Source of the DNA: a virus
Length of the DNA stretch: 23,578 nt
Strand: one strand, 5' to 3'
IMG/VR virus record: IMGVR_UViG_3300028837_003277
Coordinates: 1 to 23,578 of that record
Shown: positions 6,277-22,235 of the stretch, in pieces
How positions within the stretch are numbered: the first letter of the stretch is position 1
Layout of the letters: the number at the start of each line of letters is the position of its first letter
Made by a program: the position numbers and the translations under genes
Notes under the pieces: generated by a model
Seen by the model: the letters and a program-made list of their open reading frames with translations, nothing else
Databases searched by the model: none
What the model was told of the DNA's origin: nothing

Positions 6277-7113
6277 ATGTTCAGTAGAAATGGCAGTGGT
6301 GGGATCAAGATCAGGATCTACAAGAGCAACGAGCAAGTGAATTGGTGGCAGGTGGTGCTCATGGTAGGGCTGATAATCGCGCTTGTCTTGCTTGCATTGA
6401 CTCTGCCGGGGTGCGCGGTCGAACCGGAGGAGCCGGTGGCACGGGGGACATACAACTGTGATGTCTATACGGAACAGGGATGTGCGAAGTTCGTGGTCGC
6501 CAGCGGGGGCGAGATCGAGGTGCAGTCCGGCGGGACGGTGGATGTGCAGGATGGAGCTACGATAGGCCTCGGTGGGACATCCTCATTCGGAGATATTGAT
6601 GCGACTGGCACGATCACGGCCGCGACGGGGTTTGTGGGTAGCGGGAATGTCTCGCTGGGGGATGCGATCGGGGACAATATCTACGTGTATGGCCAGATGC
6701 GGTCCTACGATGGTTCCGACAACTGGGCGGACATCTCCGACGTCAGTGCCCTGGGTAGAGGGAATGGGTGGCACGCCAGTTACAATGTCACAGACGGCGG
6801 GAGCGACCAATTCCAGGCGCTATTTGCGAATACTCAGGTTTGCACTACTACCAATACTGGGTCGATCTACGGCCTGGAGGCCAAGGCCACGTACAAGGCG
6901 ACCGAGGGATCCGGTCCTTACGCAATGGCGTACGGGGTATTTGGGAAGGTGACCGCAGGGTCACAGCGTGCAATCGAACAATCCCGATCTATTTGTTGTC
7001 GAGAACTCGGCCGGCACCGACCTCTTTGCTGTGGACAACACCGGTGTAGTCGACCTCGACGGCGAGCTGGATGTGGCCGGGGACGCGACGCTGGGGGATG
7101 CGATCACAGATAA
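6277..7113 (+). CDS. membrane-anchored surface-type protein, first fragment (frame breaks near 6955-6980)
   Basis: The start has a strong ribosome site (TAAGGAGG, 6263-6270). Residues about 22-45 are a membrane anchor or signal (WWQVVLMVGLIIALVLLALT), followed by LPGC, an imperfect lipobox, and the linker EPEEPVARG. Then come beta-rich segments (VASGGEIEVQSGGTVDVQDGATIGLGG) typical of surface or fibre proteins, and a ~100-residue module (LGDAIGDNIYVYGQMRSYD to YGVFGKVT). After codon ~226 the frame reads basic, Cys-rich nonsense (RSICCRELGRHRPLCCGQ), while the sensible continuation is in the +1 frame at about 6962. The real coding content therefore ends near 6955. I read 6277-7760 as one ancestral gene split by two +1 changes. 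Export to the envelope is inferred. Confidence 0.6.
   Translation: MFSRNGSGGIKIRIYKSNEQVNWWQVVLMVGLIIALVLLALTLPGCAVEPEEPVARGTYNCDVYTEQGCAKFVVASGGEIEVQSGGTVDVQDGATIGLGGTSSFGDIDATGTITAATGFVGSGNVSLGDAIGDNIYVYGQMRSYDGSDNWADISDVSALGRGNGWHASYNVTDGGSDQFQALFANTQVCTTTNTGSIYGLEAKATYKATEGSGPYAMAYGVFGKVTAGSQRAIEQSRSICCRELGRHRPLCCGQHRCSRPRRRAGCGRGRDAGGCDHR
6655..6954. repeat. tandem duplication, copy 1 (300 bp; pair of 7091-7390)
   Basis: Bases 6655-6954 align without gaps to 7091-7390 (offset 436). The first 156 bases differ at about two dozen sites, including amino-acid changes, while the last 144 (6811-6954 against 7247-7390) are identical. The offset is not a multiple of three, so the copies are read in different frames. 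Confidence 0.95.
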
Positions 7114-7396
7114 CATCTACGTGTACGGGCAGATGCGGTCCTACAACGGTTCGAGCAACTGGGTCGACGTCCCTGATCTCAGTGCCCTGGGCAGAGGAAA
7201 TGGGTGGCACGCCAGTTACAACGTTACAGACGGCGGGAGCGACCAGTTCCAGGCGCTATTTGCGAATACTCAGGTTTGCACTACTACCAATACTGGGTCG
7301 ATCTACGGCCTGGAGGCCAAGGCCACGTACAAGGCGACCGAGGGATCCGGTCCTTACGCAATGGCGTACGGGGTATTTGGGAAGGTGACCCAGTAA
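6968..7396 (+). CDS. second fragment of the duplicated surface-type protein
   Basis: Read from GTG 6968 this gives 142 residues: NNPDLFVVENSAGTDLFAVD and NTGVVDLDGELDVAG, a repeat-type linker common in fibre proteins, followed by the second copy of the ~100-residue module ending YGVFGKVTQ. It has no signal peptide or membrane segment and only a weak ribosome site, so independent translation is doubtful. It is best read as the continuation of the gene at 6277 in the +1 frame. Removing one base near GGG 6958-6960 restores continuity. Automated gene callers would probably list it as a separate gene. Confidence 0.5.
   Translation: MQSNNPDLFVVENSAGTDLFAVDNTGVVDLDGELDVAGDATLGDAITDNIYVYGQMRSYNGSSNWVDVPDLSALGRGNGWHASYNVTDGGSDQFQALFANTQVCTTTNTGSIYGLEAKATYKATEGSGPYAMAYGVFGKVTQ
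7091..7390. repeat. tandem duplication, copy 2 (300 bp; pair of 6655-6954)
   Basis: Partner of 6655-6954. The two copies end at the same GGGAAGGTGACC, after which each reading frame needs a +1 change to stay sensible. The identical 3' half against the diverged 5' half suggests recent gene conversion of the 3' part. Confidence 0.95.
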
Positions 7397-7469: not shown

Positions 7470-7760
7470 GTGGTGGACCTGGGGGCAGGATTCACGCTGA
7501 CGCCGGGTGCCAGTTACCAGCCGGTGACGAACTCCACGGGGGGGTCCATCACATCGGACACCTCCACGGCTATTGTAGATGGCGCTGTTCCTGGAGTGAT
7601 CTTGATCATCGTGAACGAGGATGCCCAGGACATTGTCCTGAAAGACGCGGCGAACACTCAGTTGGGTGGAGACATCACCCTGACCGGGGGAGCCGATGAC
7701 TCGATCACATTGCTTTGGGATGGTACCGATTGGACCTGCCTGTCGGTTCACGATAACTGA
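7470..7760 (+). CDS. C-terminal fragment of the surface-type protein, or separate small beta-rich protein
   Basis: From GTG 7470 this encodes 96 residues: VDLGAGFTLTPGASYQPVTN, STGGSITSDTSTAIVDGA, VPGVILIIVNEDAQDIVLKD, then LGGDITLTGGADDSITLLWD and GTDWTCLSV. It looks like a compact beta-sandwich or fibre head. The same frame is sensible back to 7398 (GETLKNTTDTAWQVGGFLG), just after the stop of the previous fragment, so it is probably the end of the gene that starts at 6277. Removing one C from CCC 7389-7391 joins them. GAGGAGG at 7458-7464 could permit independent initiation. It ends in TGATG, one base overlapping the protease gene. Confidence 0.55.
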   Translation: MVDLGAGFTLTPGASYQPVTNSTGGSITSDTSTAIVDGAVPGVILIIVNEDAQDIVLKDAANTQLGGDITLTGGADDSITLLWDGTDWTCLSVHDN

Positions 7761-8320
7761 TGACGACGTTCGCGTTTTGTTGCGCGAGTTTTGCAGAGAT
7801 GACGGAGCGGGCGGCGGGGGTGACGCCGCTGACCTCGCCGCCCGTCGATGCCGGCGACTTTGATCCGGCATGGCTCGAGGGACACGATCTGCTGTGGTTC
7901 GACCTGCACGGCCAGCCGGGGGCGGCCTGGTGGATGGGCGATAACCGGCTGATCGCGCTGACGGCGGGACAGATCCGGGATGCGGATCTGGGCGGGGCGA
8001 TCGTGTTCGCGCTGAACTGCTATCTGGCGGACGAGGGCTCGCCGATGTTGGATGCGCTGCTCGACGCCGGCGCGCGGTATGTGATCGGTGGGGACGGTCG
8101 GAACTGGGCCGGGCAGCGGACGTTGTATGGTGCGGCGGTCCTGGGGATGCGATTCGTGGAGGGGCTGTGCCAGGGGCAGGATCCACTCAGGGCGCTGGCG
8201 CTGGCGAAGCGACGGGTGAGGCTGTCGATGGTGCGAGATTGGTTGCTGAGGCGCGGGCAGCGGATCACGGCGGCAAAGGATACGTTGGCGTTTCGAGCTT
8301 ACTATAGGAGGTCAGCGTGA
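7760..8320 (+). CDS. CHAT/caspase-like (clan CD) cysteine protease candidate
   Basis: The 186-residue protein has the core of a clan CD peptidase. A hydrophobic strand ends in a histidine-glycine (LLWFDLHGQPG, His50), and a second hydrophobic strand ends in a cysteine (IVFALNCYLADE, Cys87). These are followed by the CHAT-like tail: LLDAGARYVIGG (about 100-111), then YGAAVLGMRFVEGLCQGQDP and RALALAKRRVRL (about 123-155). This parallels the H-G and S/A-C elements and the 'G-A..V...F...L..G..P..AL..A' helix pattern of CHAT proteases. It is small, with no partner domain in the same chain. It lies between two membrane-anchored protein genes inside a head operon, an unexpected place. Substrate unknown; assignment is by motif pattern only. 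Confidence 0.65.
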   Translation: MTTFAFCCASFAEMTERAAGVTPLTSPPVDAGDFDPAWLEGHDLLWFDLHGQPGAAWWMGDNRLIALTAGQIRDADLGGAIVFALNCYLADEGSPMLDALLDAGARYVIGGDGRNWAGQRTLYGAAVLGMRFVEGLCQGQDPLRALALAKRRVRLSMVRDWLLRRGQRITAAKDTLAFRAYYRRSA

Positions 8321-11621: not shown

Positions 11622-11643
11622 TCCCCCTGACCCTCACCCCCAG

Positions 11644-11666
11644 CCCCTCTCCCAGGGGGAGAGGGG
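11644..11666. repeat. perfect GC-rich hairpin after capsid gene
   Basis: The arms CCCCTCTCCC (11644-11653) and GGGAGAGGGG (11657-11666) pair perfectly around the loop AGG. Flanks extend it imperfectly (CCCTCACCC upstream, GGGTGGGTAAGGGG downstream). No T-run follows, so an intrinsic terminator is not indicated; it could moderate capsid mRNA decay or downstream transcription. A degenerate relative lies at 20841-20860. Confidence 0.8.
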
Positions 11667-11715
11667 AGGGCAGGGTGGGTAAGGGGCGTTATCGGAACTG
11701 TAGGAGATAAGACCG

Positions 11716-20716: not shown

Positions 20717-20811
20717 GAACAGTTCGATCCAGCGCAGTGCGACGGCATTGCGTCTGTGTGGGTCTGGTGCCCTCCTACCCCGATCGAGCTGGTACTCTCT
20801 TTCCTCCTGTT

Positions 20812-20850
20812 GGGGAGGGGTCGGGACTTACAATCCCGGTCCCTCTCCCA
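20812..20850. repeat. imperfect inverted repeat in the non-coding gap
   Basis: GGGGAGGGGTCGGGA (20812-20826) can pair with TCCCGGTCCCTCTCCC (20834-20849 region) around CTTACAA. The 3' arm (CCCTCTCCCAGGGGG) is close to the hairpin at 11644-11666. The gap 20717-20898 is otherwise free of recognisable genes. No T-run follows directly, so a terminator call would be weak. Confidence 0.6.
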
Positions 20851-20898
20851 GGGGGAAAGGTGAATGCAGGGCTGACAATGCTGATTATCAGAAGTACG

Positions 20899-20927
20899 TT
20901 GACAATTCGGGAGAAATCTGGTAAAAT
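20899..20927 (+). promoter_or_regulatory. strong sigma70-type promoter
   Basis: TTGACA (20899-20904, perfect -35) is followed by exactly 17 bases and TAAAAT (20922-20927, one mismatch to TATAAT). The start would lie near 20933-20935. The sequence around it is richer in A/T than the coding neighbours. It would drive the leader at 20934-21082, the gene at 21114, the HNH gene and the tape measure independently of the late operon. Confidence 0.8.
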
Positions 20928-20933
20928 GGAGCC

Positions 20934-21082
20934 AAGCTGGCGAGCTTGCGGAGAGGGCTTTTTTGTGCCTTCCACTTTCACAATTCAATCATCTTGTGAC
21001 TCAAAGAGCCACAGTGATAGGCTTAACCCCTCCGAGCTCGCCAGCTCCGGGAAGGCATTGTCACTGTGGCTCTTTGCGTTTT
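20934..21082 (+). ncRNA. structured leader or small RNA with alternative pairings
   Basis: Four arms are visible. A is AGCTGGCGAGCT (20935-20946) and A' is its exact reverse complement, AGCTCGCCAGCT (21035-21046). B is CAAAGAGCCACAGTGA (21002-21017) and B' is its exact reverse complement (21061-21076), followed by CGTTTT. Order A-B-A'-B' makes the pairings interlock as a pseudoknot or as alternatives. A third sequence, GGAGCTGGCGA (21101-21111), is perfectly complementary to A' (21038-21048) and contains the Shine-Dalgarno of the gene at 21114. An early terminator-like signal (AAGCT-GGCG-AGCTT, then GGGC and T6 at 20959-20964) lies just after the start site. No coding frame explains the region. 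I infer attenuation or translational control, or a small RNA ending at B'. Confidence 0.6.
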
Positions 21083-21113
21083 ATCTCCTGTGGAGAGAAA
21101 GGAGCTGGCGAAA

Positions 21114-21398
21114 ATGAAGGTGCAGAGCATCAGGGAAGGGTGTATGTCGGTAGGCCTGTCACCGGAGGATTGCGTTCTGCTGGCGGAGGCCTGCCAGGTG
21201 GCGGCGGAGAACATCATCGCCGAGGAGCGAGCGCAGGACGTCGCCCGGGTCGAAACGATGGGGGCCGTCTTTCACGCGGCAGGGATCGCGGCCTACGGGC
21301 AGAGAGTGATGGCCCTCAACGAGTTGCCGGCGTTGGAGCGGGTGCTGCAGGACGTGGGGCTGCACGAGGTGCCGTATCCGTTCCGGGAGCCGGCGTGA
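21114..21398 (+). CDS. small hypothetical protein under leader control
   Basis: ATG 21114 is chosen because AAAGGAG (21098-21104) lies 9 bases upstream; the frame is open further up but into the structured leader. The 94-residue protein is helical and acidic: GLSPEDCVLLAEACQVAAEN, IIAEERAQDVARVETMGAVF, HAAGIAAYGQRVMALNELPA. The C-terminus is EVPYPFREPA. I do not recognise it. Between chaperone and tape measure one would expect tail assembly accessory proteins. The stop overlaps the HNH start (TGATG). Confidence 0.65.
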   Translation: MKVQSIREGCMSVGLSPEDCVLLAEACQVAAENIIAEERAQDVARVETMGAVFHAAGIAAYGQRVMALNELPALERVLQDVGLHEVPYPFREPA

Positions 21399-22156
21399 TG
21401 AAGGAGGTGTGGCGAGATATTCCGGGGTTCGAGGGGTATCAGGTCAGTGACCAGGGACGGGTGAGGTCTCGTCGAAAACCTGGTCCTAATGCCGGAGAAT
21501 TAAGCGACGAATGGCATTTGATGTCTCCTTTTACAGATCAGCAGGGATATCTTGGGTTGCATTTAGCTGGACCTGAGAAACCAGTTCGTGTCAAGGTTCA
21601 CCGATTGGTGTTGGAAGCCTTTGTTGGGCCGTGTCCGCCTGGGGAGGAGTGTTGTCATAACAAGGGTGATCCAGCCGACAATCATTTGGAGAATCTTCGA
21701 TGGGACACCAGAAGTAGTAACGTTAAGGATGCTTACAAGCACGGTCGACTACCTTGTGGAGCAAAACACAGACAATCTAAGCTGACGTCCGACGACGTCC
21801 GTAAGATTCGTAGTCTATATGCTTCTGGAAACGTGACATATCAAGAGCTTGCAGATCGATTTGGTATAACCCCCTCAACCATCGGGAGTGTCATTGAGGG
21901 TAAGACGTGGAACCATGTAGACGGTGCTCTTTCCGATACTGATTTGAAGAGTCTACATTCGAGGATTCTGAACGACCGTAGACCTCGCGGAGCAAAAAAC
22001 GGAGCATCTAAACTGACGCCCGATGATGTTCGCGAGATTCGCAATCTGTATGCCTCTGGAAACGTGACATATCAAGAGCTAGCAGACCGATTCGGCATGC
22101 ATCGTTGCACAATTGGGAGCATCATTCGACGCGAGCTCTGGAAACACATAGAGTAG
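21398..22156 (+). CDS. HNH endonuclease (NUMOD4-type) with duplicated C-terminal HTH
   Basis: ATG 21398 overlaps the previous stop by one base; the 252 residues start VWRDIPGFEGYQVSDQGRVR, the NUMOD4 motif of free-standing homing endonucleases. The HNH core follows: VHRLVLEAFVG (His68), CCHNKGDPADNHLENLRW (His87-Asn88, Asn95-His96). The C-terminal half is a tandem duplication of a DNA-binding module (about 121-174 and 198-250), each with SKLT-DDVR-IR-LYASGNVTY and QELADRFG. Its DNA is clearly lower in GC than its neighbours, a sign of transfer. Such genes nick DNA and spread into phage genomes between genes, sometimes marking the site they cut. All catalytic positions are present. Confidence 0.92.
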   Translation: MKEVWRDIPGFEGYQVSDQGRVRSRRKPGPNAGELSDEWHLMSPFTDQQGYLGLHLAGPEKPVRVKVHRLVLEAFVGPCPPGEECCHNKGDPADNHLENLRWDTRSSNVKDAYKHGRLPCGAKHRQSKLTSDDVRKIRSLYASGNVTYQELADRFGITPSTIGSVIEGKTWNHVDGALSDTDLKSLHSRILNDRRPRGAKNGASKLTPDDVREIRNLYASGNVTYQELADRFGMHRCTIGSIIRRELWKHIE

Positions 22157-22192: not shown

Positions 22193-22235
22193 GGAGGGCA
22201 AATGGAGGGCAAACTATGAGCGATCCGTAATCGTG
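22193..22235 (+). promoter_or_regulatory. duplicated ribosome site and MSDP mini-ORF before tape measure start
   Basis: GGAGGGCAAA occurs twice (22193-22202, 22204-22213). The second copy serves ATG 22216, which reads MSDP and stops at TAA 22228-22230. The tape measure frame begins at GTG 22233, three bases later, with no ribosome site of its own. Coupled re-initiation would explain this; an alternative is a small indel that detached the original ATG. Confidence 0.5.

Follow-up and report, generated by a model that had tools for sequence, protein, structure and literature searches.

An IMG/VR virus fragment carries, between its tail chaperone and tape measure genes, a near-consensus promoter followed by a leader of extensive internal complementarity and a small orphan gene; in our interpretation, this arrangement is probably a moron-like unit that bears a structured phage leader of an undescribed kind. 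The window is the whole stretch analysed, 23,578 nt in length, and coordinates are window positions unless another locus is named. The reading that we moderately favor over its rivals is that of a moron-like cassette composed of its own promoter, a structured 5' leader of about 180 nt that would act in cis, and a small accessory gene. The candidate is a structured phage RNA family new to Rfam; it is linked with a family of orphan genes and with a movable cassette, in phages for which no host has been cultured. Should the RNA prove functional, it would offer a small and testable example of a moron with control of its own, and would indicate that accessory genes can take structured leaders along when they move.

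Features of the window (position, strand, description):
20790-20868, no strand assigned: very stable hairpin with a dispersed repeat (fold -48.3 kcal/mol), just upstream of the unit
20899-20927, plus strand: sigma-70-type promoter, TTGACA-17-TAAAAT with extended -10 TG, 11/12 consensus
20935-20957, plus strand: arm A (20935-20946) with its extension (20949-20953, 20955-20957), the 5' strand of the 5'-terminal hairpin P1
20966-20973, plus strand: arm C, complement of C' (21050-21057)
21002-21020, plus strand: arm B, pairing with 21058-21076 over 16 Watson-Crick bp, 19 with G-U
21027-21048, plus strand: 3' strand of P1, comprising CCC (21027-21029), CUCCG (21030-21034) and A' (21035-21046); 21038-21048 also complements the ribosome site
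21058-21076, plus strand: arm B', followed by CG-UUUU, whose U-run (21079-21082) forms a weak terminator-like tail
21100-21111, plus strand: Shine-Dalgarno AGGAG (21100-21104) and A'' (21101-21111), the site of the ORF starting at 21114
21114-21398, plus strand: 94-aa orphan gene, homologues only at L009:3208-3462 and L011:3002-3256
21398-22156, plus strand: HNH/NUMOD4 endonuclease gene with two HTH repeats, its start overlapping the orphan-gene stop

Genomic setting and promoter

The window contains a siphophage structural block (portal, Mu-F-like protein, prohead protease, capsid, major tail protein and tape measure), with about 1.5 kb of extra DNA, made up of the promoter-leader-orphan-gene unit and the HNH endonuclease gene, between the tail chaperone and the tape measure. 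Because a small ORF precedes the tape measure by less than about 300 bases in its relatives L018, L019, L020, L022 and L023, which are without a comparable insert, the roughly 1.5 kb seems to have been inserted in the window phage. The HNH/NUMOD4 gene was probably acquired together with the promoter-leader-orphan unit or next to it. The initial annotation had located the promoter and leader at the passage from tail chaperone to tape measure; the interval was right, but the gene that follows the leader is the 94-aa orphan (21114), then the HNH/NUMOD4 gene (21398-22156), and only then the tape measure, which starts at 22233. Its surprise at an internal promoter where phages normally have none is better met by an inserted cassette than by regulation of the tail genes.

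The promoter had been described exactly, in both letters and coordinates: the -35 hexamer TTGACA (20899-20904) and the -10 hexamer TAAAAT (20922-20927) are separated by a 17-nt spacer, and transcription is predicted to start at about 20934. No other 11/12 match to the sigma-70 consensus exists between 4000 and 23578 (19.6 kb), and the looser pattern TTGAC-N18-TANANT, for which 0.06 occurrences are expected in the window, was observed once. The homologous loci L009 (2999-3027) and L011 (2786-2814) have TTGAC(A/G)-17-TA...T, with the hexamers kept and the spacers diverged. The dispersed repeat in the hairpin just upstream has a second copy, 84% identical, at 11639-11675. Hairpin repeats of the CCCTCTCCCAGGGGGAGAGG type are dispersed between phage genes (window 11639-11675 and 20835-20871; L045:17342-17396); they look like host REP-like repeats and could help to identify the host. 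Neither the small protein nor the portal had a match in a search of genome contigs.

Pairings of the leader in the window phage

Arms A and A' are complementary at 12 of 12 positions, and B (21002-21017) and B' (21061-21076) at 16 of 16 (19 with G-U in the longer arms). That these perfect complements interlock, as the initial annotation had asserted, is exact and well beyond chance: of 2000 dinucleotide-shuffled versions of 20928-21130, five had a perfect stem of at least 12 bp and one had a perfect stem of at least 16 bp, while two interlocking stems of at least 10 bp never occurred. Equally exact is the 11-base complement that it had noted between A' and the ribosome site of the gene at 21114; 21038-21048 pairs with A'' (21101-21111) at 11 of 11 positions, overlapping the Shine-Dalgarno AGGAG, and none of 300 shuffles contained a leader-to-ribosome-site complement of that length. 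A fourth complement, C/C' (20966-20973/21050-21057), had been missed. The RNA from 20935 to 21120 is more stable than expected (z = -5.0; 0/200 shuffles equally stable), and a second stability value against shuffles stands at z = -7.1 beside this one.

Before B' is made, the predicted nascent RNA, ending at 21060, folds into a single long 5'-terminal hairpin in which A/A', CGGAG/CUCCG and GGG/CCC add up to 20 bp. Folding of successive prefixes passes from A/A' at 21050-21060 to B/B' from 21070 onward, B/B' winning the nested folding once B' is made. The A/A' and A'/A'' duplexes have calculated energies of -28.3 and -24.7 kcal/mol, and the ribosome-site duplex -9.7 kcal/mol. Folding with and without the pseudoknot, which had been proposed as a check, gave rough sums of -77.6 kcal/mol for nested B/B', about -71 for A/A' with B/B', and about -76 for B/B' with A'/A''; the three states thus lie within about 7 kcal/mol of one another after an assumed pseudoknot penalty of 9.6 kcal/mol.

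Relatives of the unit

Homologues of the orphan gene were found among the portal relatives, at L011:3002-3256 and L009:3208-3462, both upstream of the terminase/portal block; two more IMG/VR scans gave no further homologues. The order of promoter, leader and gene is conserved, and so is its spacing, the distance from the predicted start to the ATG being 180 nt in the window, 174 in L009 and 181 in L011. The long stem begins at +2 in the window and at +1 in both L009 and L011, and closes near +113, +99 and +102, respectively. Transcripts of L009 and L011 are predicted to start directly on a stem of 14-18 bp, GCTCCTGGCAGAGCA.../...TGCTCTGCCAGGAG, which closes about 100 nt on; the predicted start in the window lies one base before arm A.

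The RNAs of L009 and L011 are about 90% identical over some 150 aligned columns, whereas the proteins are about half identical; in the nucleotide alignment the RNA aligns and the coding region of the small gene does not. A coding explanation for this conservation was rejected, as single-base indels shift the frame. The inner helix P1b has 10 bp in L009 (GGCAAGUGUA/UACGCUUGUC) and 9 bp in L011 (AGACGGAUG/CGUCCGUCU), with nearly all letters changed; counted by hand outward from P1, seven of nine positions differ on both sides and still pair. Although the register of P1b shifts between the two loci, so that this is not formal, column-by-column covariation, the comparison provides good evidence that P1b pairing is under selection. 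The whole sample consists of three loci, of which two are closely similar, and this counts against the favored reading of the unit.

The window leader, aligned with those of L009 and L011, has no similarity above that of shuffled sequences (whole leader, p > 0.8; 5' arm, p of about 0.05), and a covariance model built from L009 and L011 (R1) finds both, no further copy in the loci compared, and no match in window 20934-21113. What the three loci appear to have in common is thus an architecture, namely promoter, 5'-terminal hairpin, leader of about 180 nt and small gene, and not a sequence. A scan with the P1-stem pattern also returned a match in L041, which was discarded, as it falls within a reading frame of HNH type that has no relation to the unit. 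The Rfam family search that had been suggested was run on the window, L009 and L011, at the gathering score and at E<=10, and yielded no match for the leader, the best sub-threshold entries being at chance level and mostly miRNA precursors.

A neighbouring conserved small gene beside the cassette site has a near-consensus promoter of its own, TTGAC(T/G/C)-17-TA...T (L007:1543-1571, L009:3512-3540, L011:3283-3311), with its ATG six bases past the -10 hexamer; since the ATG follows so closely, its message would be leaderless.

Probable mobility of the cassette

In L007 (95% portal identity; closer to the window phage) the flanks of the L009 unit are present and the cassette is absent, TTTTTGTGTAGCAT being followed by TTCTATTTAAATTTATTGAG within a few tens of bases. 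Because L007 is without the unit at the L009 site, the unit behaves like a phage moron. The cassette site itself differs, between tail chaperone and tape measure in the window and upstream of the terminase/portal block in L009 and L011. A promoter of its own, recognized from sequence features, and presence/absence or a differing site among close relatives were both found; own promoter, single gene, patchy presence and differing position are the marks of a moron. At its end the L009 unit has an inverted repeat and then a run rich in T, GGCCTGCCC-gt-GGGCAGGCC-TTGTT, resembling an intrinsic terminator; this closing hairpin is seen in L009 only, and none is evident before the HNH gene in the window. 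The unit resembles the moron cassettes of temperate phages in its single small accessory gene, own promoter, sporadic occurrence and varying place, and in L009 perhaps also in the terminator-like hairpin, but differs from them in its long, conserved structured 5' leader and, in the window, in the lack of an evident terminator ahead of the HNH gene. Immediately in front of the cassette site (L007:1360-1500, L009:2880-2990), repeats resembling TTTGTGCAATGATTGTGCAAA occur in pairs and TGCTACACAAA...TTTGTGTAGCA form an inverted repeat; these may be operators and a terminator.

The orphan protein

Family profile searches, including defence families, gave no match above noise for the 94-aa protein, and it is not a member of the Abi_2 family. 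It is predicted, at low confidence, to be all-helical, and its AlphaFold model (pLDDT 58.8) is too poor for a fold search. PDB sequence matches to designed helical and TIM-barrel proteins, as well as NCBIfam matches far under the cut-off, were judged compositional. Phage and plasmid collections compared with the window DNA, the L009 DNA and the small protein contained chance-level matches only.

Proposed working of the leader and alternative explanations

Stems at the 5' terminus protect E. coli mRNAs from 5'-end-dependent decay. We propose that the leader most likely works in cis, on the transcript that carries it. This transcript would open with a long hairpin at +1, namely the 20-bp extended A/A' in the window and P1 in the relatives. 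Such a stem would shield the message from decay that depends on the 5' end and, by tuning translation, would set the amount of small protein made. In the window only, B/B' and A'/A'' would give two more folds, and release of A' onto the ribosome site might, speculatively, throttle translation. The leader of the phage lambda pL-N transcript similarly combines a strong promoter, a long leader hairpin (with an RNase III site) and a small phage gene; unlike there, the hairpin here begins at +1.

A stronger version of this idea, close to that of the initial annotation, is a switch in which A' would alternate between A, leaving the ribosome site open, and A'', masking it, with the folding of B/B' during transcription driving the change. 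All of the pairings exist and are improbable by chance, prefix folding passes from A/A' to B/B' as the model would have it, and the A/A' and A'/A'' duplexes are comparable in energy, both beyond that of the ribosome site; since the fold states lie within about 7 kcal/mol (a rough value that includes the assumed penalty), the switch is energetically possible. Nevertheless, the A'/A'' complement is absent in both L009 and L011, where the longest leader-to-ribosome-site complement is 7 nt (p 0.18) and 5 nt (p 0.98), respectively, and, because arms A and A' each come close to being palindromic and A'' repeats part of A, one chance duplication suffices to make the A'/A'' pairing. We therefore consider the switch unlikely, a speculative hypothesis drawn from a single sequence. 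Of the earlier proposal of an RNA switch or attenuator, the structured leader after a promoter holds, with the same gene family and spacing in L009 and L011, but a conserved switch does not, A'/A'' being confined to the window; by the same token, the proposal of an undescribed phage regulatory RNA holds for a structured leader without an Rfam match, while its specific mechanism comes from one sequence. The pairings might also be a by-product of DNA-level repeats or of insertion, through mobile-element ends or HNH homing, with an RNA fold devoid of function. A dispersed repeat hairpin and an HNH gene do flank the unit, but the inner helix is kept despite sequence change and the same start-site geometry recurs in two lineages, which renders this explanation rather improbable.

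The main rival to the moron-like cassette with a cis-acting leader is an RNA-protein partnership, in which the transcript would mostly end as a short trans-acting or protein-binding RNA, akin to an RNA antitoxin, and read-through would yield the small protein as its partner. In L009 and L011 the RNA is more conserved than the protein; an RNA kept better than its gene may be one that acts in trans, which counts against the leader reading. The layout is that of RCd22-abiF, and in the window a short RNA could terminate at the B/B' hairpin with its trailing UUUU. In RCd22-abiF the start of the RNA lies 168 nt upstream of the toxin ATG (PMC12373285), and that system (RF03085) shares with the present unit a promoter, a structured RNA of about 170-180 nt, a gene on the same transcript and a phage-borne location. 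Against such a partnership, the 84-94-aa protein is far smaller than Abi_2, unrelated to it and without a defence-family match, Rfam searches of the window, L009 and L011 did not find the abiF RNA motif (RF03085) in the leader, and no clear terminator separates RNA and gene in L009 and L011. With the motif and the Abi_2 protein absent, and the RNA-protein pairing here only putative, the unit would be at most a functional analogue of RCd22-abiF, and we regard the partnership as an improbable account, on a par with the switch. Slightly more doubtful is the combined view of an undescribed phage RNA-protein module, in which a fast-evolving structured RNA from the promoter would partner with or control the 84-94-aa orphan protein, the two travelling together between phages whose host is uncultured, the three-way A/A'/A'' fold in the window tying 5'-end integrity to translation. 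A still more distant analogue is the put RNA of HK022, whose putL consists of two stem-loops right after the early promoter (PMC9378689). A polymerase-modifying antitermination RNA of this kind would allow read-through of later terminators into the long tape-measure gene; two hairpins from +1 directly after a strong promoter, and the location of the window copy upstream of a very long gene, would be consistent with it. The RNA is about twice the length of put and has no Rfam match, and the L009 unit ends in its own terminator-like hairpin, so that we deem this the least probable of the alternatives.

Additional observations

Within the HNH endonuclease gene the HTH segment is duplicated, window 21751-21921 and 21982-22152 being 74% identical. 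A tandem duplication of 300 nt, 90% identical (window 6642-6941 and 7078-7377), lies inside putative fibre-like genes and adjoins a depolymerase C-terminal domain. Finally, window 7760-8320 encodes a 186-aa protein, without a Pfam match and with a poor structure model, that is conserved in L010, L011 and L012; its DLHG is invariant, a C is likewise conserved (FALNCYL in the window), and its C-terminal stretch resembles, by eye, CHAT/caspase-like peptidases.
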